Shown here: positions 12,099 to 23,028 of the stretch, piece by piece | Layout of the letters: each line of letters opens with the position of its first letter | How positions within the stretch are numbered: the first letter of the stretch is position 1 | Assembly (NCBI RefSeq): GCF_023716925.1 | Contig: NZ_JAMQQG010000018.1 | Location: 1 to 41,981 of the forward strand | Length of the DNA: 41,981 bases | DNA from: Frankia sp. R82 | GTDB lineage: Bacteria > Actinomycetota > Actinomycetes > Frankiales > Frankiaceae | Direction: 5' to 3' | Notes under the pieces: model-generated | Told to the model about the DNA's origin: nothing | The model's database searches: none | What the model saw: only the letters and a program-made list of their open reading frames with translations | Translations under genes and position numbers: made by a program

Positions 12099-13019
12099 TC
12101 AGTCAAGCGGCGACGTCGATGCCGGCGCGAGCGGAGCTGTCGCGGCAGCATCCTGGATGGCACGGGATGACCGGCCGGTCATGGTTCGGGCGCGGTCCGT
12201 TATGAGCCCACGCAGCGCGCGGTCGGTCGCCGCATCGGCCGGAGTGACGGCGAACAGGCGTTGGTGGGAACCGTCGAGGGTGGCGAGAAGGTCATAGGCG
12301 ACGGTCAGCTCGCCGGCCACCGGATGGCAGATGCGCTTGACGCCATGGGAACGCTCCTGCACCGTGTGGTCGTCCCACCAGGCGGCGAACTCGGCGCTGT
12401 CTCGGCGCAGGCGCGCGATGACCTCCGCCAGTCGTGCGTCATCGCGGTGACGCGCGAAATCAGCGCGCAGGTTCCCGACGGCCTCCCGCGCGATGCGCGT
12501 CCAGTCGAGCTGTGTTTTCCGGGTCCGTGGGTCCAGGAAAAGCAGATAGGCGTTGTTGGCCGCGTCGCCGAGGCCGAAGGTCTCACCGAACAGCGCCGCT
12601 GCGGCGGCGTTGCGGGCGAGGATGTCACAGCGAAAATCCATGAGGTAGGCGGGCACCAGCGGCATACCGTCGAGCAGGGCCAGCAGCGAGTCGCTGACCG
12701 GGGTGGGCACGGCCGCGTCGATCGGCGCCTCGTCACGCCCGATCAGATGCAGGTGGCGGCGCTCGGCCGGGGACAGGAGCAAGGCGCGGGCGACCGCGTC
12801 GAGTACCTCGGCGCCCGGGATGCCCACCCGTCCCTGTTCCAACCGGATGTACCAGTCGACGCTGACCGCCGCCAGTTGTGCGACCTCCTGACGCCGCAGG
12901 CCCGGCGCGCGGCGACGGTCGCCGCAGGGCAGGCCCACGTCCTGCGGTCGAAGCCGGGCCCGCTTCGCCCGCAGGAACCGCGCCAACTCCGGGCGTCGTG
13001 TCGTCCGCGGGTGCGTCAT
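12099..13019 (-). CDS. XRE-family regulator with MmyB-like ligand-binding domain
   Basis: A 306-residue transcriptional regulator. The N-terminal helix-turn-helix (about residues 5-80) has the family's RRAPGLRRQEVAQLAAVSVDWYIRLEQGR sequence, in which the recognition helix is followed by the WYxxLEQGR motif. The C-terminal half, with DPRTRKTQLDWTRIAREAVGNLR and a DDHTVQERSHGVKRICHPVAGELTV region, is the MmyB-like PAS-type domain thought to bind a small ligand. I chose ATG 13019 because the conserved domain begins right after it; an upstream in-frame start at 13166 would overlap the PEBP gene. The divergent PEBP gene, 137 nt away, is the obvious candidate target. Confidence 0.9.
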   Translation of the reverse strand: MTHPRTTRRPELARFLRAKRARLRPQDVGLPCGDRRRAPGLRRQEVAQLAAVSVDWYIRLEQGRVGIPGAEVLDAVARALLLSPAERRHLHLIGRDEAPIDAAVPTPVSDSLLALLDGMPLVPAYLMDFRCDILARNAAAAALFGETFGLGDAANNAYLLFLDPRTRKTQLDWTRIAREAVGNLRADFARHRDDARLAEVIARLRRDSAEFAAWWDDHTVQERSHGVKRICHPVAGELTVAYDLLATLDGSHQRLFAVTPADAATDRALRGLITDRARTMTGRSSRAIQDAAATAPLAPASTSPLD

Positions 13020-13156
13020 CTGCCCATGATCGACCCCTGCCCGGGCAGACGCCAGCGGCGATCCTGGTGTTCCGAATGCCAGCATGCGCGACGCCTTCCA
13101 CCTTCGTGCCGGTGCCTGCACCGTGGTCCGCGCACACCACCGAGCGGGAGGCACTG

Positions 13157-13774
13157 ATGAAATCACCGTTTCGCGTCGCGACCGCTGTCGCGCTCGTGGC
13201 AGTCTGCACCGCGGGAATGATCACTGCGGCCACCGCGGGGTCCGGCCCCGCGCACACCGACGGCTACGGATACACGGCTGTCCGCCGCAACATTCCGGAC
13301 AGGGCGGCCCACTTCCAGGTCAGCAGCCCGGACATGCGTGACGGCGGCGCGCTGTCGGCCAGCCACTGGGCGAACGGGTTCGGCTGCGACGCCCCCAACC
13401 AGCCGGTGCGGCTCACCTGGACCGGGGCGCCGGCGGGTACCCGCGGCTACGCGGTCACCCTCTTCGACCCGGACGCACCCACCGGAGCCGGCTTCTGGCA
13501 CTGGCTGGTCTGGGACATCCCGGCCACCGCCACCCGGCTTGGCCCGACACCGCCGCCCGGCGCGGTGTCGGGCACCGATGACGCGGGCGTCGCCGGCTAT
13601 CTCGGGCCGTGCCCGCCGGCCGGCGACATCGCCCACCGCTATCAGTTCACCGTGTACGCCCTGGACACGCCCAGCCTCGGTCTGACGGGTACCACGCCAC
13701 CCACCGTCGTGGCCTTCACCCTGTCCAGCCACGTTCTCGGTTACGCCCGCATCACCGCCACGGTCCAGCGGTAG
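13157..13774 (+). CDS. Secreted YbhB/YbcL-family (PEBP, Raf-kinase-inhibitor-like) protein
   Basis: A 205-residue protein with a Sec signal peptide (basic MKSPFR start, hydrophobic core, cleavage probably after ATAG near residue 28) and one phosphatidylethanolamine-binding-protein fold. The family motifs are FDPDAPTGAGFWHWLVWDIP and YLGPCPPAGDIAHRYQFTVYALD. The ATG at 13157 follows GCGGGAGG. The ligand is unknown; bacterial members are annotated as possible kinase inhibitors without proof. It is divergent from the XRE regulator and ends in a hairpin that overlaps its stop codon. Confidence 0.9.
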   Translation: MKSPFRVATAVALVAVCTAGMITAATAGSGPAHTDGYGYTAVRRNIPDRAAHFQVSSPDMRDGGALSASHWANGFGCDAPNQPVRLTWTGAPAGTRGYAVTLFDPDAPTGAGFWHWLVWDIPATATRLGPTPPPGAVSGTDDAGVAGYLGPCPPAGDIAHRYQFTVYALDTPSLGLTGTTPPTVVAFTLSSHVLGYARITATVQR

Positions 13775-13807
13775 GGAGGCCTGGGCCCGAGCGAGGACGG
13801 CCTCCCT
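13773..13807 (+). terminator. Hairpin overlapping the PEBP-gene stop codon
   Basis: AGGGAGGCC (13773-13781) pairs with GGCCTCCCT (13799-13807) across a 17-nt loop. The stem begins inside the TAG stop at 13772-13774. There is no downstream T tract, so it could be a weak terminator. Confidence 0.5.
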
Positions 13808-14038
13808 GCACGGGACGACGTCCACGATGGTTGCCTCTGCTTGCCCGTGCACCATCACGTTGGTATACAAGCTGTGACTTAGAGCGCAGACGTTGCCGGC
13901 ACCAGTGACGCACCGTATCGAATCCGGTCTGACCACGATCATCCACCACCCGATGCGACTCCATGGTCTGGCGGGAGACCGGGCCGGCTGTCACCTGTTG
14001 ACGGCCATTGCCGTGCTGATCGACGAGGAGGAGAACGG

Positions 14039-14806
14039 GTGGACCTGTTCGACCTGACCGGCAGGACGGCGGTGGTCACCGGCGGCACCCGCGGCATCGG
14101 CATGATGATGGCGCGCGGTCTGCTGCAGGCCGGCGCCTCGGTCTGGATCAGCTCGCGCAAGGCCGACGCCTGTGAGTCCGCCCGTGCGGAGCTGGCCCGG
14201 TACGGGCGGGTCGAGGCGGTGCCCGCCGACCTCTCCCGCGAGGACGAGTGCGTTCGGCTCGCGCACGAGGTCGGCGATCGCGAGGAACGCGTCCATGTTC
14301 TCGTGAACAACGCCGGCGCGACCTGGGGTGCGCCACTGGCGGAGTACCCGAGCTCGGCCTGGGACAAGGTGCTCGATCTCAACGTGAGGTCGCCGTTCAT
14401 CCTCACCCAGGCGTTCCTGCCGCTGCTGGAGGCGGCGGCCTCGGAGGACGACCCGGCCCGCATCGTCAACGTCGGCAGCATCGACGGGTTGACGGTTCCG
14501 GTCGGGCCGACCTATGCCTACTCCGCGAGCAAGGCGGCTCTCCATCACCTGACCCGTCACCTGGCCAGGGAACTGGGTCCAAGGCGCATCACGGTCAACG
14601 CCGTGGCTCCCGGTCCGTTCGCGTCGAAGATGATGGCGGCCACCCTGGCAGCCTCCGGCGACGAGATCGTCGCCGCCGCACCACTGGGTCGCATCGGCCG
14701 CCCGGACGACATGGCCGGTGTTGCCGTCTACCTGTGCAGCCGGGCCGGTGCGTATGTCACCGGCGCGGTCATCCCGGTGGATGGCGGGCTGGCGACGACC
14801 AGGTAG
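14039..14806 (+). CDS. Short-chain dehydrogenase/reductase
   Basis: An NAD(P)-dependent classical SDR of 255 residues. The cofactor motif TGGTRGIG is at residues 14-21, the NNAG motif follows the fourth strand, and the active site has Ser in NVGSIDG and the Y161-x-x-x-K165 pair (YSASK). The C-terminal GAVIPVDGGLATTR end is typical. Arg18 in the glycine motif hints at NADPH preference. The GTG start is set by GAGGAGGAGA just before it. The acyl-CoA dehydrogenase gene begins 13 nt after its stop, so the two form an operon. They may act on the same acyl or alcohol intermediate, but the substrate is not known. Confidence 0.93.
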   Translation: MDLFDLTGRTAVVTGGTRGIGMMMARGLLQAGASVWISSRKADACESARAELARYGRVEAVPADLSREDECVRLAHEVGDREERVHVLVNNAGATWGAPLAEYPSSAWDKVLDLNVRSPFILTQAFLPLLEAAASEDDPARIVNVGSIDGLTVPVGPTYAYSASKAALHHLTRHLARELGPRRITVNAVAPGPFASKMMAATLAASGDEIVAAAPLGRIGRPDDMAGVAVYLCSRAGAYVTGAVIPVDGGLATTR

Positions 14807-14819
14807 GAAGGCACAGAAG

Positions 14820-16049
14820 ATGACCGATTTCTCCGTTTCGCTCAACGACGACCAACGCGCACTGCGGAAATGGGTGCACGACTTCGCGGTGGACGTGATA
14901 CGGCCCGTGGCCGCCGAGTGGGACGAGCGCGAGGAGTTCCCGTGGCCGGTGGTGCAGGAAGCGGCCAGAATCGGCCTCTACAGCGTGGATTTCGTCAGCA
15001 ACGGCACCTTTGGTGACCCGACCGGCCTCACCCTGCCGATCGCCGTCGAGGAACTGTTCTGGGGCGACGCGGGCATCGGCCTGGCCATCATGGGTTCCGC
15101 GCTGGCAGCCGCCGGCATCGCGGCGAACGGTACCCCTGAGCAGGTCATGGAGTGGGTCCCGCAGTGCTATGGGAGCGCCGACGACGTCCGGCTCGGAGCG
15201 TTCTGCGTGTCCGAGCCGGACGCGGGATCGGACGTCTCGTCGCTGCGCACCCGCGCCGTCTACGACGAGAGGACCGACGAGTGGGTGCTGGACGGCACCA
15301 AGGCGTGGATCACCAACGGTGGCATCGCCGACATCCACGTGGTCGTCGCCACCGTCGACAAGAACCTGGGCGGCAAGGGGCAGGCGAGCTTCGTCGTCCC
15401 CCGGGTGGCCGGCCTGAGCCAGGGCCAGAAATACAGAAAGCACGGCATTCGGGCCTCTCACACCGCGGAGGTCGTCCTCGAAGGCGTACGGGTACCCGGT
15501 TCGCACCTGCTGGGGGGCAAGGAGAAGCTCGACGCGAAACTGGCCCGCGCTCGGGAGGCGCTCGTGCGGCCCAGTGGCGCGCACTCCGGCAAGCAGCCGG
15601 CCATGGCCACTTTTGAGGCCACCCGCCCCACCGTGGCCGCCCAGGCTCTCGGCGTGGCGCGAGCCGCCTACGAATACGCGCTCGACTACGCCAAGGAACG
15701 TCACGCCTTCGGCAAGCCGATCATCATGAAGCAGTCCATCGCGTTCATGCTCGCCAACATGTGCACCCAGATCGACGCGGCCCGGCTGCTGACCTGGCGG
15801 GCAGCCTGGCTCGGCCACAACGGGACGTACCAGAACGCGGAGGGGTCGATGTCGAAGCTGTATGCTGGCCGAACCGCGGTGTGGGTCACCGAACGCGCCA
15901 TCCAGATCCTCGGCGGCTACGGCTACACCCGCGAGTTCCCGGTCGAGCGCTGGCACCGGGACGCGAAGATCATGGACATCTACGAGGGCACCGAGCAGAT
16001 TCAGGAACTCATCATCTCGCGGGCGATCTCCGGGCTCCGAATCGAGTGA
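14820..16049 (+). CDS. Acyl-CoA dehydrogenase
   Basis: A FAD-dependent acyl-CoA dehydrogenase of 409 residues. The N-terminal helical domain starts with LNDDQRALRKWVHDFA, the middle domain has the FAD/substrate motifs FCVSEPDAGSDVSSLRTRA and DGTKAWITNGGIAD, and the C-terminal domain has YAKERHAFGKPI, ILGGYGYTREFPVERWHRD and the catalytic base Glu389 in YEGTEQIQ. An insertion of about 30 residues (around LARAREALVRPSGAHSGKQ) sits between the middle and C-terminal domains, as in a subgroup of actinobacterial enzymes. The ATG follows AGGAAG and the upstream SDR stop by 13 nt. Chain specificity cannot be read from the sequence. Confidence 0.95.
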   Translation: MTDFSVSLNDDQRALRKWVHDFAVDVIRPVAAEWDEREEFPWPVVQEAARIGLYSVDFVSNGTFGDPTGLTLPIAVEELFWGDAGIGLAIMGSALAAAGIAANGTPEQVMEWVPQCYGSADDVRLGAFCVSEPDAGSDVSSLRTRAVYDERTDEWVLDGTKAWITNGGIADIHVVVATVDKNLGGKGQASFVVPRVAGLSQGQKYRKHGIRASHTAEVVLEGVRVPGSHLLGGKEKLDAKLARAREALVRPSGAHSGKQPAMATFEATRPTVAAQALGVARAAYEYALDYAKERHAFGKPIIMKQSIAFMLANMCTQIDAARLLTWRAAWLGHNGTYQNAEGSMSKLYAGRTAVWVTERAIQILGGYGYTREFPVERWHRDAKIMDIYEGTEQIQELIISRAISGLRIE

Positions 16050-16123: not shown

Positions 16124-17242
16124 CTACTGCGGGTCCGGGTGCTCCCTGCCGGCGGCGATGGTCGCCGTCACCTCGGCGACTCGTTGCTCCTCCCGTGTGC
16201 GCAGGCGTTCGACGTCGAGTGCCTCGGCGGCGTCGTCGTCCTGTGCCATGAGCTGGTCCAGGTCGGCGTCGCCGAGGTCCACAACGCCCATGTCGACGTA
16301 GGCCTGCCGCAGCCGTGGGCCCCACAGGCCGATGTCCTTCACGCACGGCACGACCCGGGCGAACAGCAGCGTGCGGAAGATCCTCATCATCTCGCTGGCC
16401 TCGACCAGTTCCCTGGCCTCCGCCGGGCGCAGACCGAGGTTCTCCAGGACCTCGACGCCCTGGATCCGGTCGCGCATCAGGTAGCAGCCCTCGATCACGA
16501 ACTCCTCACGTTCCCGGAGCTCGGCGTCGGAAAGCCCCCGATAGTAGTCGCGCAGCGCGATCCGGCCGAAGGCCACATGCCGGGCCTCGTCCTGCATGAC
16601 ATAGGTGAGCAGCTGCTTCGGGAGCGGCTTCGTCGTGCTGTCCCGGATCAGGCCGAAGGCGGCGAGGGCCAGGCCCTCGATGAGGACCTGCATGCCCAGG
16701 TACGGCAGGTCCCACCGCGTGTCGTTCAGGCTGTCGGCCAGCAGGCCCTGGAGACTGTCATTGATCGGGTAGAGCAGGCCGATCTTCTCGTGCAGAAACC
16801 TGGTGTAGATCTCGACGTGCCGGGCCTCGTCGACCACCTGGGTGGCGGAGTAGAGCTTCGCGTCCAGGCCGGGGGAGGTCTCCACGATGCGTGCCGCGCA
16901 GATCAGCGCGCCCTGCTCGCCGTGCAGGAACTGGGAGAACTGCCAGGCGGCGAAGTGCCGGCGCACCTGTGTACGGTCGGCCGCCGACATGCGGTTCCAG
17001 TGGTCGGTTCCGAACAGGACGCTCGCCTCGTCGGGAATGCCCAACGGATCATCGGGGTCGACGTCCAGGTCCCAGTCGATCCGTCTGGTCGAGTCCCACT
17101 GCCGGTCCTTGCCCTTCTGGTACAGGTCCAGCAGCCGGCCGTGCTCGGGGTCGTATTCCCAGGTGAAAACAGGGTGGCCGCCGGCGTCGGCGGTCCAGCG
17201 GTCTGCTTCGGGGGTCTGCGTGTAGAGATCTCGCGTGGACAC
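16124..17242 (-). CDS. Ferritin-like diiron protein (R2/AurF-like oxygenase candidate)
   Basis: A 372-residue protein with a four-helix-bundle diiron site laid out twice with identical spacing: E109 then E139-A-R-H142, and E189 then E219-A-R-H222 (E-x29-EARH in both). This is the E...DExRH signature of ribonucleotide-reductase R2-like and AurF-type oxygenases. It is too long and lacks the motifs of a true R2 radical subunit, so a monooxygenase or N-oxygenase is more likely. The start is the GTG at 17242, preceded by GAGGGAG. The C-terminal 40 residues are acidic. It converges on the acyl-CoA dehydrogenase gene (74-nt gap) and diverges from the GNAT/PLP-decarboxylase pair. Substrate unknown. 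Confidence 0.8.
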   Translation of the reverse strand: MSTRDLYTQTPEADRWTADAGGHPVFTWEYDPEHGRLLDLYQKGKDRQWDSTRRIDWDLDVDPDDPLGIPDEASVLFGTDHWNRMSAADRTQVRRHFAAWQFSQFLHGEQGALICAARIVETSPGLDAKLYSATQVVDEARHVEIYTRFLHEKIGLLYPINDSLQGLLADSLNDTRWDLPYLGMQVLIEGLALAAFGLIRDSTTKPLPKQLLTYVMQDEARHVAFGRIALRDYYRGLSDAELREREEFVIEGCYLMRDRIQGVEVLENLGLRPAEARELVEASEMMRIFRTLLFARVVPCVKDIGLWGPRLRQAYVDMGVVDLGDADLDQLMAQDDDAAEALDVERLRTREEQRVAEVTATIAAGREHPDPQ

Positions 17243-17832
17243 CAGCTGTGCTCCCTCATTGCCGGATGACGCTCCCCGACGAATACTGCGCCCTGGTGAC
17301 CGGGCCGGCCACATCGATCTCTCTATCAGGCCATAGGGGAACAGTATAATGCGACATCGGGGTCGCGGAGGGTTCTGTCGAAAACTCCCAGAATTTGCCG
17401 GAGGTATGCTCCGATTCTTTCGGCACGCAACCTGCATGGTGAATTGAGGGCATCCGTGCCGAGTCGTGTGGGAAAATATTCGGCTCGCTGTCCCGTGCCA
17501 GGTGAAGGCGTCCGACCTGGGTCGAGACGTCGCTTGGGCGGAAGTTTCGCGGGGACCGGTTCCGTGGCCATGGCATTCGGCCGGAAAGTATCGCGTGATC
17601 ATTTTTCGGGTGAGCGCCCCGGACCGCTGTCAAGGTAGGTGCTCAGGTATTTCGAAGAGTTATCGAACGATGGTTACCGGCTGGCAATTTATGGTCGATC
17701 CCGGCGCCGGTGCGACACTGGCCACGGCTGCGGGAGACATGCCGGTGTCCGGCAACATGGCGCCGATTCCTCCCGGCCCAGTCAACGGGTGGCAGGAAAC
17801 CCGCTCCACGGGTTGCAGGAAGAGGTGCCGAG
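17243..17832. other. Divergent intergenic region between the diiron and GNAT genes
   Basis: No gene is supported in this 590-nt stretch. Base composition is visibly less GC-rich than the surrounding genes (for example 17336-17351, 17470-17485, 17648-17695). It presumably holds promoters for the leftward diiron gene and the rightward GNAT/decarboxylase operon. A short inverted repeat CGGGT/ACCCG occurs just before the GNAT gene (about 17788-17806). Confidence 0.5.
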
Positions 17833-18495
17833 ATGACCATGCCGACGACGAGTTCCAGCCACACCCGTAGACCTCGGAGAAACCCGGTCCTGGTCACCGC
17901 CACACCGGACATGGCGGCGGTGGTCGATACCCTCACCCAGGCGTTCGGCCCTGACCCGATCCTGAACTGGGCCTTCCCGCCGACCGTCGCACACCGCGAA
18001 CGGTTGATGGCCGCCTTCTTCCGGATCACCACCGAACTACTGCTCGAACACGGCGGGCAGGTGGGGGTCGCACCCGAGTACGCCGCGGTCGCCGTGTGGT
18101 CGCCGCCCGGCGAGCCGGCATTGGGTGAGCGGGAACAGGCGCGGTACTTCCGGCGTCTGGCCGAGGCCTGCGGCGAGTGTGGCGAACGGGCTGTCGCGCT
18201 GATGCGGGCCCTCGACGACCAGCACCCGCCGGGCCTGCCGGCCCACTATCACGTGATGTTCGCCGCCGCGCGTCCCGAACCGGCGGCTGTGGGGCGGGCC
18301 GTCCTGCTCATACGTGCCCTGCTGAAGCTGGAGGACCTGCGGGGTTTTGGCCTGTACGCGGAGGCGTCGAGCCAGCAGAACCGCGACCTGTGGTTGGAGA
18401 TGGGGCTGCGCCGGGTCGGCAACGAGATCGTGCTGCCGGCCGGCGGACCATCCCTCTACCCCGTCTGGCGCGAACCGGATCCGCCCGCGGTGTGA
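17833..18495 (+). CDS. GNAT-family N-acetyltransferase
   Basis: A 220-residue acetyl-CoA-dependent N-acyltransferase. The N-terminal part (LTQAFGPDPILNWAFPP) and the C-terminal segment LYAEASSQQNRDLWLEMGLRRVG, corresponding to the L-E-A-S-x-x-N-x-x-LY-x-x-x-GF motif of GNAT proteins, support the call; the acetyl-CoA loop itself is degenerate. The ATG at 17833 follows AGGAAGAGG. The PLP decarboxylase gene starts 37 nt after its stop, so the two are likely co-transcribed. An attractive but unproven reading is that it acylates the amine made by the decarboxylase. Confidence 0.82.
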   Translation: MTMPTTSSSHTRRPRRNPVLVTATPDMAAVVDTLTQAFGPDPILNWAFPPTVAHRERLMAAFFRITTELLLEHGGQVGVAPEYAAVAVWSPPGEPALGEREQARYFRRLAEACGECGERAVALMRALDDQHPPGLPAHYHVMFAAARPEPAAVGRAVLLIRALLKLEDLRGFGLYAEASSQQNRDLWLEMGLRRVGNEIVLPAGGPSLYPVWREPDPPAV

Positions 18496-18532
18496 TCCCG
18501 CGGACGCGGGACACGCCCGACCGGACAGAGGA

Positions 18533-20254
18533 ATGATGTCAGAACATCCTACGGACCCAGGAGTTCCCGAGATCGCCTTCGGGCCGGCGGACACGCCCTG
18601 GCGGAACTCCTTCGGTGGACTCGCGCTGATTTCGGGATCACCCGACGTGACGCCGCCCAGCAGCGATCCCCGCCAGGCCTACGTCAGTGTCCAGGGAACC
18701 CCCTACGGTCAGTTCCAACTGCCTGCCAGTGGACTCACCGAAGATCAGTATGCGGCGGCGGAGGATCTTTTCCGATCCTGGCTGGAGCAGCAGTGCAAGG
18801 CGTCGGTCGGCTTCCAGGTCAGCGGCGACCTGGATTACCAGGAACGTCTTGGGCCATACCTCGGTCTGACTCTCAACAATGTGGGGGATCCATACCAGAC
18901 CGGCGCCTACACCCACAACTCGAAGATCCTCGAGCGTGCGGTGCTCGACTACTTCGCCTCCCTCTGGAACGCCAAGTGGCCGCACCGGAGGGACGACCCC
19001 GACTCCTACTGGGGATACTCCCTGACGATGGGTGCCAGCGAGGGGAACCTGTACGGCCTGTGGAATGCCCGGGAGTATCTCTCCGGGCACCTTATGCTGC
19101 ATTCTGGACAGGATCCACGGCCATCCGGCGGTGGCCGGTACGCACCGGCTGGTGGTCCGGCCGGGCCGGGATCGAACAGCTTTCACCCGGTCATCTTCTA
19201 CTCGCAGGACACGCACTACTCCTTGACCAAGGCGACCAGGATACTGGGTATCGACACCTTCCAGGACGTCGGCCGCCGCTGGTTCCCGGACGAGAACCCG
19301 TTGGATCCGGGCACCCCCTGGCCGGCGGAGGTGCCGTCGGTCGGTGGCGCCGACGGCGATGGCACGATCGACGTCGACCGGCTGGCGGTGCTTGTGGAGT
19401 TCTTCGCGTCCCGCGGGTTTCCCGTTCTGGTCAACCTGAACTACGGTTCGACCTTCAAGGGTTCCTACGACGATGTGGAGGCTGCATCGAGGACGGTTCA
19501 CGAGATCTGCGCGAAACACGGCCTGGACGAACGCCCCGTCTATTTCGACCACCATGCCCGTGAAGACCAGGTCCAGCCCGGGAACTTCGATCTGCGCACC
19601 GGGTACTGGGTCCACGTGGACGGTGCGCTGGGCGCTGGCTATGTTCCCTATCTGGAGATGGCCCGCCGGGCCGGCCTGGTCGCGGCGGCGCCCCCGGTGT
19701 TCGACTTCCGCCTGTCGACGGTGCACTCCATCACCGCGAGCGGCCACAAGTGGATGGGGGCACCCTGGCCGTGCGGAGTCTTCATGACACGCACCGGGCT
19801 CCAGATGGTTCCGCCCCGGGAGTCCGAGTACATAGGATCGGCCGACACGACCCTCGCCGGATCACGCAACGGATTCTCGCCCCTGTTGATGTGGGATTAT
19901 CTGGCTCGCCACTCCTACGACGAACAGGCCCGGTGGGCAGCCGAATGCGACCGGATGGCAGCGTACGCCGAGAGCTGCCTGCGAGCGCTCGAGAAGGAGC
20001 TGGGTCTCGATCTGTGGGTGGCGCGCAGCCCGTTCTCGCTCACCGTTCGCTTTCGCCGGCCCGCTGCCTGGCTCGTCCAGAAGTACTCGCTGTCGTACGA
20101 GACGATCCACGTGCGCGGGCGGCGGCGAACCTACGCGCACCTGTTCACGATGCGGCATGTGACACCCGATGTGGTTGACGGACTGGTCCGCGATCTCCGT
20201 CGGCCGGGAGCGTTTCCGGTTGGGGACCCCGTCGAGCAGGAACAGGTCGGGTGA
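18533..20254 (+). CDS. Group II pyridoxal-phosphate-dependent decarboxylase (histidine/aromatic amino-acid decarboxylase-like)
   Basis: A 573-residue PLP enzyme. The cofactor Lys is K406 in ITASGHKWMGAPWPCGVFM, the Asp contacting the pyridine ring is in HVDGALGAGYVPY, and the ring-stacking His lies in SQDTHYSLTKATRILGI. GASEGNLYGLWNAREYL is the phosphate-binding region. These match group II decarboxylases, closest in pattern to the bacterial histidine decarboxylase type, but the substrate amino acid is undetermined. It is longer than the usual ~480 residues, with an N-terminal extension of about 60 residues. The adjacent ATGs at 18533 and 18536 both follow AGAGGA closely. It is the second gene of an operon with the GNAT. 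Confidence 0.87.
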   Translation: MMSEHPTDPGVPEIAFGPADTPWRNSFGGLALISGSPDVTPPSSDPRQAYVSVQGTPYGQFQLPASGLTEDQYAAAEDLFRSWLEQQCKASVGFQVSGDLDYQERLGPYLGLTLNNVGDPYQTGAYTHNSKILERAVLDYFASLWNAKWPHRRDDPDSYWGYSLTMGASEGNLYGLWNAREYLSGHLMLHSGQDPRPSGGGRYAPAGGPAGPGSNSFHPVIFYSQDTHYSLTKATRILGIDTFQDVGRRWFPDENPLDPGTPWPAEVPSVGGADGDGTIDVDRLAVLVEFFASRGFPVLVNLNYGSTFKGSYDDVEAASRTVHEICAKHGLDERPVYFDHHAREDQVQPGNFDLRTGYWVHVDGALGAGYVPYLEMARRAGLVAAAPPVFDFRLSTVHSITASGHKWMGAPWPCGVFMTRTGLQMVPPRESEYIGSADTTLAGSRNGFSPLLMWDYLARHSYDEQARWAAECDRMAAYAESCLRALEKELGLDLWVARSPFSLTVRFRRPAAWLVQKYSLSYETIHVRGRRRTYAHLFTMRHVTPDVVDGLVRDLRRPGAFPVGDPVEQEQVG

Positions 20255-21213: not shown

Positions 21214-23028
21214 TCAGCCGGTGAGCAGGGCGGTCGCGGCGAAGCCGAGCACCGTCGCCGCGATGGTGAGGCGGATCGGCAGCTGGGCCCGTTCGACCAG
21301 CGCGGGTCGCCGCGAGATCGCGGACAGCGGCCCGGCGATCATCGCCAGCAGTGCACCCGCCCACACCAGCGCGGACAGGTCGGCCATGTCCGGGTTGAGC
21401 CCGACCACGACGATGGTGGCGATCAGCGCGGCGGCGAACAGGGCCTGGGGCAGCAGCAGCAGCGACATCCGCGGCAGCGCGGTCTTCGCGGTGGTGCCGG
21501 ACTCGGGCCGTCCGGCGAGCACGACGCGCACGAACGCCAGCGCGTACAGCGGCGCGTTGAACAGGGTGCTCGCGATCGTGCGGTGCGCGCCGCGCAGACC
21601 GGCGTGGTAGGCGACGAGCAGCATCGAGCCGAGCAGGTACGGCAGCGCGTGCAGCATGTAGGCGGTCAGCGAGCTGCCGGCGGCGATCTGGATCCCGGCC
21701 ACGGCGCTCAGCGGCGGACCGAGCAGGAACATCATCTGCGCACAGGCCACCAGGTAGCCGATGCCGGTGTGCAGGTAGTGCGCGCGCTGCCAGCCGCTGA
21801 GCCCCGGCTTGCGCAGTGGGCTGTCGAACAGCAGCAGGCGTAGCCCGTCCATCGCCCACCGGCTGCGCTGGCGGGCGTACTCGGCGGCGGTGGCCGGCGC
21901 GATGCCGACGGACACCGGCTGTGGATGGTAGACACTGCGCCAGCCGCGGGAATGCAGTTCGTAGGACGTGTGCAGGTCCTCGACGATGTTCCATTCGCTG
22001 AAACCGCCGGCGGACTCGAGTGCCGTACGCCGGTACAGGGTGCCGTTTCCGCAGGAACTCGCCGCGCCGTCGCGGTCCTTCGCCGGCTGCACCGCCCGGT
22101 ACAGCATGGGCTCGGCATTGTTGAGCACGTCGTACCGGCCGACGTCGAAACGCTGCTCGGTGCAGACGAACCCGACCGTCGGGACCCGCAGATAGCCCAG
22201 GACCCGCTCGGCCAGGTCGGGAACGGCGATGTGGTCGGCGTCCAGCGTCATGATCGCCTCGGCGTCGGTGCGGGCCAGGGCGTGGTTCAGGTTCGCGGCC
22301 TTGCCCCTGGTCCCGTCCGTGCGGGTGAAGCAGGTCAGGCCGAGCCGGGCGGCCAGCTCGTCGATCTCACGCCAGTTGTTCCGGCGGGCGATTCGACCGT
22401 CGTTGAGGACGTAGGTGCGATGCGGGTAGTCGATGGCGACGGCCGCCCGCAGCGTCGCCTCGACGATCTCCACCGGCTCGCCGCAGACGGTGACGAACAC
22501 GTCCAGGGTGCCCACGGGCGCCGGCGCACGGCGGACCCGACCCGGCCGGATCCGCGCGGTCATCACCGCCGTCCACACGACCGCGAAATAGCTGGCGACC
22601 TCCGCCGCGTAGAACAGGCCTCCGGCCACCCCGGTGCCACCCAACCCACCGGCCCGCCAGACCAGGTACACCGCCCCGATCAGGACGACGACCATGGCCA
22701 GCGCTGGTCCGGCAAGGGTGCGCAACCGGCCGACGGGTACCCCTTCCCAGGCGTCCTCGTCGGTCAGCGGCGCCATCTCCGTCAGCGGCGCCGGCCCGGT
22801 CTGGCGTGCCGAGGTGGACGGACCGGTGTGAACGGTGCCGGCCGTGGTCTCGATGACGGCGGCCTGGGTGGGAATCGTGGGCCGGTGGGACGTCATGGGG
22901 GTCAGGGGTCTCGTGGTGCTGGCGGGTGGTGCTGGTGGCGGAAGCCGGGCCGGGGCCCGCTGTGCCGTCAGTGTGGTGACCTCATGGACGTCCGCACTGT
23001 CTCCACCCTCGGGTCCGGCAGGATTCAC
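21214..23028 (-). CDS. Cellulose synthase-like family 2 glycosyltransferase
   Basis: A membrane processive glycosyltransferase of 604 residues that should polymerise sugar from a UDP-sugar donor on the cytoplasmic face. An N-terminal low-complexity region (about residues 1-110) is followed by two membrane helices, the catalytic domain with the GT-A core (DVFVTVCGEPVEI), D263-x-D265 in LDADH, the general-base ED in NIVEDLHTSYEL (about 347) and QRSRW (about 385), then further helices. The QxxRW motif marks processive enzymes of the BcsA/hyaluronan type. No c-di-GMP PilZ domain is seen. The GTG start at 23028 is chosen for AGGAGA seven bases upstream; ATG 23058 and GTG 23088 are alternatives. 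No bcsB or glycosidase partner is adjacent. Confidence 0.88.
   Translation of the reverse strand: MNPAGPEGGDSADVHEVTTLTAQRAPARLPPPAPPASTTRPLTPMTSHRPTIPTQAAVIETTAGTVHTGPSTSARQTGPAPLTEMAPLTDEDAWEGVPVGRLRTLAGPALAMVVVLIGAVYLVWRAGGLGGTGVAGGLFYAAEVASYFAVVWTAVMTARIRPGRVRRAPAPVGTLDVFVTVCGEPVEIVEATLRAAVAIDYPHRTYVLNDGRIARRNNWREIDELAARLGLTCFTRTDGTRGKAANLNHALARTDAEAIMTLDADHIAVPDLAERVLGYLRVPTVGFVCTEQRFDVGRYDVLNNAEPMLYRAVQPAKDRDGAASSCGNGTLYRRTALESAGGFSEWNIVEDLHTSYELHSRGWRSVYHPQPVSVGIAPATAAEYARQRSRWAMDGLRLLLFDSPLRKPGLSGWQRAHYLHTGIGYLVACAQMMFLLGPPLSAVAGIQIAAGSSLTAYMLHALPYLLGSMLLVAYHAGLRGAHRTIASTLFNAPLYALAFVRVVLAGRPESGTTAKTALPRMSLLLLPQALFAAALIATIVVVGLNPDMADLSALVWAGALLAMIAGPLSAISRRPALVERAQLPIRLTIAATVLGFAATALLTG

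Follow-up and report, generated by a model that had tools for sequence, protein, structure and literature searches.

A GNAT-decarboxylase module opposite a two-histidine diiron oxidase gene in Frankia sp. R82, possibly reduced from a larger cluster

Do three genes that meet across a single spacer in Frankia sp. R82 form one small biosynthetic unit? They lie in a 41,981-nt stretch of DNA (the window; all coordinates are positions in it, read on the forward strand) and encode a diiron oxidase or oxygenase of the AurF-like family, two-histidine subtype (16124-17242, minus strand, GTG start at 17242), a GNAT-fold N-acyltransferase (17833-18495, plus strand), and a pyridoxal 5'-phosphate (PLP)-dependent group II amino acid decarboxylase of the VlmD clade (18533-20254, plus strand). 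The three open reading frames are intact, and their coordinates confirm an earlier note on this DNA that had the diiron gene facing the other two across a 590-nt spacer (17243-17832). The decarboxylase gene begins 37 nt after the GNAT stop codon, so the pair is most likely one operon. We think there is about an even chance that the locus is a two-enzyme module for making and acylating an amine, facing the diiron oxidase gene, and that it has been reduced from a cluster like that of Frankia sp. AiPs1. The VlmD-clade enzyme would form a primary amine by decarboxylating an aliphatic L-amino acid that is short or branched, one like valine or perhaps methionine, and the GNAT would then acylate that amine; the AurF-related oxidase gene would be read from the opposite side of the same spacer, and six genes would have been lost rather than gained.

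The shared spacer and the longer AiPs1 locus

In AiPs1 (genome G009, locus L069; the window's own genome is G000), the diiron gene also faces a GNAT-decarboxylase pair, with six genes in between. These encode a condensation domain, an AurF, a carrier protein, and proteins resembling class II aminoacyl-synthetases, agmatine deiminases, and Orn/Arg decarboxylases; Pfam scores of the carrier protein and the class II synthetase-like protein fall below the cut-offs. The window spacer is homologous to the AiPs1 spacer between the diiron and condensation-domain genes: their alignment has a global z of 8.2 and a local z of 6.6, and none of 500 dinucleotide shuffles reached either score. Homology of the GNAT genes begins about 10 nt before the start codon, and a homologous control region would appear to precede a long operon in AiPs1 and a two-gene operon in the window. 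A simple scan of the window spacer found no sigma-70-like promoter site. One block shared with the AiPs1 spacer (17349-17364) contains TGCGACATC, which we treat as a lead only, because a three-mismatch search of the window did not find it above chance; a second TGCGACA copy lies at 17711-17717 and has a counterpart in the AiPs1 spacer, inside TGCGACACTG. The earlier note's remark that the spacer is less GC-rich is correct (61.2%, versus 67.8% in the diiron gene, 70.3% in the GNAT gene, 65.2% in the decarboxylase gene, and 70.8% in the window as a whole), with the difference from the decarboxylase gene being small. Beyond the diiron gene the flanks differ, with a PBP gene and a short-chain dehydrogenase/reductase (SDR)/acyl-CoA dehydrogenase pair in the window versus a MarR gene in AiPs1.

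The six AiPs1 proteins gave no credible matches when searched against the window, except that the AurF has a paralogue in the diiron gene product. A tblastn match of the carrier protein to 19459-19521 (23 residues, E = 8.7e-4) lies in another frame inside the decarboxylase gene, and we set it aside as chance. Genome-wide searches of the host assembly, a 370-contig draft that is 95% complete, gave no match for the AiPs1 condensation-domain protein (a search that had no positive control) and none for the carrier protein of another Frankiaceae genome, G016; the diiron gene was the sole AurF match. The window locus thus looks reduced from a larger, AiPs1-like biosynthetic cluster. We infer that the window lineage losing the six genes is a simpler account than AiPs1 gaining them, because three of the four genomes that have the decarboxylase keep a carrier protein, beside or inside the operon, and the window's genome does not. 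The same absences could mean that the locus is a relict: with the carrier protein, condensation domain, AurF, and ligase-like genes gone, the remaining genes would be decaying and would make nothing of note. We regard this as improbable, since all three genes are intact and the ratio of nonsynonymous to synonymous substitution rates (dN/dS) against AiPs1 is low for each (diiron, 0.27; GNAT, 0.35; decarboxylase, 0.16), although these ratios are pairwise and do not describe the window branch alone.

The GNAT-decarboxylase pairing and the likely substrate

The decarboxylase is present in 4 of 35 Frankiaceae genomes (G000, G009, G016, and G017; E = 1e-40), with a GNAT gene directly upstream of it in all four. 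A class-wide search for the GNAT at E = 1e-15 matched 82 of 393 genomes, among which near-full-length relatives of at least 49% identity were confined to Frankiaceae. Four such GNATs, 49 to 51% identical to the window's, are found in G028, G030, G033, and at a second site in G000, and each adjoins a group II decarboxylase of a second type; the three of these compared are 22 to 24% identical to the window's over 255 to 361 residues, and the one scanned, from G028, resembles aromatic-amino-acid and related decarboxylases. Because a full-length GNAT of at least 49% identity adjoins a group II decarboxylase at 8 of 8 loci, the pair is a recurring module. At a ninth locus, in G032, the GNAT is a fragment, and the 19 kb fetched there contain no such decarboxylase. 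The second pair in the window's own genome (L116, 9274-11726; G000:C337) includes a decarboxylase that is 67% identical to that of G030 and runs in one unbroken frame by tblastn.

The GNAT itself has no Pfam match at E = 0.01, and its assignment comes from phmmer matches to solved N-acetyltransferases (2qec, E = 2.4e-5; 7k09, a puromycin N-acetyltransferase, E = 1e-4) and from the decarboxylases that its relatives adjoin. It differs from puromycin N-acetyltransferase-like GNATs in its tie to decarboxylases and in a degenerate CoA-loop motif. The usual motif is Q/R-x-x-G-x-G/A; the window GNAT has A at the Q/R position, which is A or G in the four VlmD-linked GNATs and remains Q in the four linked to aromatic-amino-acid-type decarboxylases. 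On one reading, the VlmD-linked GNATs take their acyl groups from a carrier protein; the Pfam score of the G016 carrier protein, unlike that of the AiPs1 one, is above the cut-off. Structure prediction from a two-sequence alignment was too poor for a fold search with either the GNAT (pLDDT 48) or the diiron protein (pLDDT 42). In G016 and G017 a SARP-type (BTAD) regulator gene is divergent from the operon of GNAT, decarboxylase, and carrier protein (L070, 12392-13207; L071, 12058-12882), hinting at secondary metabolism there; the L071 protein was the one scanned, and the L070 protein is 89% identical to it.

For the decarboxylase, the family assignment is clear (PF00282, Pyridoxal_deC, 46 bits against a cut-off of 27), and the PLP lysine motif SGHKW is present; the GHKW string occurs in 13 of 14 decarboxylases compared, the exception being that of L033. 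The nearest solved structure is the L-methionine decarboxylase 7cif (E = 5.5e-143), an enzyme that we take to be of Streptomyces origin and that has the same lysine motif. Identity to 7cif is only 49%, however, versus 60 to 66% for four other decarboxylases of the set and versus 62 to 64% between the window enzyme and the decarboxylases of five valanimycin-like Streptomyces loci, and we therefore did not class it as an L-methionine decarboxylase. In a tree of 38 rows (2 of 40 were removed as too short), it falls in a nine-row clade with support of 100/100; the remaining members are three further Frankiaceae proteins and five Streptomyces proteins, the latter from four strains. Five conserved gene families adjoin all five of these Streptomyces decarboxylases. 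At the one locus where we ran Pfam on the neighbors, L036, they match LPG_synthase_C (VlmA-like), an acyl-CoA-dehydrogenase fold (VlmH-like), and a flavin reductase (VlmR-like), with subthreshold matches to DUF4260 (VlmO-like) and AurF (VlmB-like); a profile of all five VlmB-like proteins finds PDB 6d9f, "Putative VlmB homolog," at E = 4.6e-177. Five genes, VlmA/H/O/R/B, are given as common to the valanimycin, KA57-A, and azodyrecin clusters in an excerpt of PMC9379638, and roles of VlmO and VlmB are described in an excerpt of PMC11705231. According to an excerpt of PMC7794544, the substrates of VlmD include Val, Leu, Ile, and further aliphatic amino acids; since the window enzyme belongs to a VlmD-type clade, an aliphatic amino acid is its likely substrate. 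The clade is defined here by the decarboxylases of valanimycin-like loci, VlmD itself not being among the sequences compared, and the published VlmD residue numbers agree with these proteins at no more than four of six positions, in two proteins.

The window gene differs from that of VlmD in its surroundings: it is not beside VlmA/H/O/R/B genes and has a GNAT partner instead. We also rejected a valanimycin-like azoxy pathway elsewhere in the host. No VlmO-like match was found in G000, in a search that matched G016 and both Streptomyces control genomes, and VlmA-like matches in G000 were weak and partial (best 22% identity, E = 1.7e-5, versus 2.4e-144 in G016; the Streptomyces controls were strong). 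Because of these two results, an azoxy pathway in the host genome seems unlikely. G016 has VlmA- and VlmO-like genes of 63 to 64% identity at about 26.5 to 33.2 kb of contig C134; its sole VlmD-type decarboxylase match is on C2, not C134, and adjoins the GNAT and carrier protein genes.

The diiron protein and whether it belongs to the unit

The earlier note had read two identical E-x29-EARH half-sites in the diiron protein, and both are there, as E108-x29-E138-A-R-H141 and E188-x29-E218-A-R-H221 (numbering starts at the Ser after the GTG start). The protein matches PF11583 (AurF) at 54.5 bits against a cut-off of 29.6. The six ligands, E108, E138, H141, E188, E218, and H221, are invariant across all 25 sequences aligned (the window protein and 24 relatives; the fragment L031 was excluded), a conservation that is not chance. 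With its Pfam match and its two carboxylate-histidine half-sites the protein is like the diiron N-oxygenases AurF, CmlI, and Dob3, but four residues before the last Glu ligand, where those enzymes have an extra His, the subfamily has V (22 sequences) or I (3 sequences), and none of the 25 has the His. We take AurF itself to hold its extra His at that position. The Dob3 residues listed in an excerpt of PMC13061610 include H225 there, with E229. The AiPs1 AurF has the extra His too, as does the one AurF-like protein inspected from family f18, outside Frankiaceae (L170). A canonical AurF N-oxygenase was accordingly set aside as an identity for the diiron protein.

VlmB, the hydrazine-to-azoxy diiron enzyme, is a second candidate that we did not retain. 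The first half-site is similar, with EQG...ATQ..DEARH in four of five VlmB-like proteins, and these likewise have no His at the extra-His position (A in 5 of 5). Similarity to the VlmB profile is weak, however (probability 83%, E = 8.8e-6; E = 0.15 against 6d9f), the best solved match is instead an R2-like ligand-binding oxidase (E = 0.0013), and VlmB-like genes stand with VlmO-like genes, which the window's genome lacks by our search. We found no assigned function for the two-histidine AurF-family branch.

Relatives of the protein do occur near nitrogen chemistry. A paralogue, 48 to 52% identical, lies between transglutaminase-like and GDSL genes in a hydrazine-type cluster that also has a cupin-MetRS didomain gene, a Lys/Orn N-monooxygenase (N-hydroxylase) gene, and genes for a DAO oxidase, a heme-oxygenase-like fusion, and an acyl-CoA dehydrogenase. 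The cluster and its paralogue are present in all four Frankiaceae genomes with a cupin-MetRS gene (L076 in G003, L081 in G032, L158 in G023, and L159 in G026; Pfam calls are mainly from L081 and the other loci were read by tblastn). Together with the AurF family membership and the canonical AurF in the facing operon of AiPs1, this cluster is what would favor a diiron enzyme that oxidizes the decarboxylation product at a nitrogen (amine, hydroxylamine, or hydrazine), the three genes then being a compact N-oxidation pathway. We consider this unlikely, given the missing His, the weak resemblance to VlmB, and homologues outside Frankiaceae that were fetched without this GNAT or decarboxylase nearby; an N-oxygenase role for the diiron protein is at best putative. 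More speculative still is a specific product: a short-chain amine might be acylated by a carrier-protein-fed GNAT and N-oxidized by the diiron enzyme to a hydroxamate-like or other N-oxidized small amide. Among the literature matches listed, such metabolites were not tied to Frankia, and nothing described the diiron/GNAT-decarboxylase arrangement.

A stronger contender, to which we give somewhat less than an even chance, is that the diiron gene encodes a stand-alone, conserved actinobacterial enzyme, that only the GNAT and decarboxylase form a unit, and that the facing position is inherited gene order. Its wide occurrence and its chance-level co-occurrence with the decarboxylase, both detailed below, speak for this. 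At 26 of the 27 loci fetched from family f18 (L166 to L191), the diiron gene has a second AurF-family gene diverging from it, followed by a TetR match at 22 of the 26 (the remaining four loci extend no more than about half a kilobase farther); the one partner protein scanned and inspected, that of L170, scores 309.9 bits. The 27th f18 locus (L204) and 12 loci from other families (L192 to L203) have no second AurF partner. No GNAT or decarboxylase match lies near the diiron gene in these 39 loci outside Frankiaceae, which are 4 to 8 kb long. In a tree of 52 rows, the diiron proteins of the window, G012, and AiPs1 form a trio (100/100) inside a 29-row clade (99/96) that groups them with the f18 proteins and not with most Frankiaceae ones; horizontal transfer of this gene (16124-17242, L007, and L008) is possible. 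On the other side, both genomes that have the diiron gene and the decarboxylase hold them divergent across a homologous spacer, even though the other flank differs.

Several observations weigh against our preferred reading of a reduced AiPs1-like locus. The diiron gene is common, occurring in 94 of 393 genomes of the class (E = 1e-50) and in 21 of 35 Frankiaceae genomes (E = 1e-20), and in 19 of those 21 the decarboxylase was not found. The two genes occur together in 2 of the 35 genomes against 2.4 expected, which amounts to no presence/absence association, and G016 and G017 have the GNAT-decarboxylase pair with no diiron match. The pairing of GNAT and decarboxylase has been seen in Frankiaceae only; among 37 named loci with a decarboxylase relative in an outside search, the GNAT was matched in one, AiPs1 itself. 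The replaced Q/R of the CoA loop leaves acyl-CoA use by the GNAT unsure, and AiPs1 may have acquired the six genes rather than the window lineage having lost them. The earlier note had suggested that the three genes could make, oxidize, and acylate an amine, and had named their co-occurrence as a check. Making and acylating are supported, with the GNAT and decarboxylase together in all four genomes; the co-occurrence of diiron gene and decarboxylase is at chance level, and oxidation is no more than a candidate step.

Neighboring genes and what the locus may mean

The earlier note had also placed an SDR gene (14039-14806, plus strand) and an acyl-CoA dehydrogenase gene (14808-16049, plus strand) with the unit. 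Both are real genes by Pfam scan, but they appear to be a separate neighbor, and we rejected their membership. Window positions 13946-16047 match genome G006 at 88% DNA identity, and G006 has no match for the diiron gene or the decarboxylase. Conversely, positions 12142-13789 and 16148-17337 match stretches of genome G012 that lie 14 nt apart, so that the diiron gene there is beside the PBP gene with no SDR pair between them. On the GNAT side G012 is uninformative, since its contig runs out roughly 100 nt upstream of this diiron gene. Farther along the window are a gene for a family 2 glycosyltransferase that is weakly cellulose-synthase-like (21214-22896, minus strand) and, near the contig end, one for a Hen1-type RNA repair methyltransferase (PF12623; 38735-40519).

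The locus is of interest as a case of a VlmD-clade decarboxylase that does not belong to an azoxy cluster and is instead part of a repeatedly occurring GNAT-decarboxylase module, one that could produce N-acyl amines. AiPs1 and the window's genome would form a natural before-and-after pair for asking which parts the larger cluster needs, and the diiron gene draws attention to a two-histidine branch of the AurF family that is widespread and is represented in two types of neighborhood for nitrogen chemistry.

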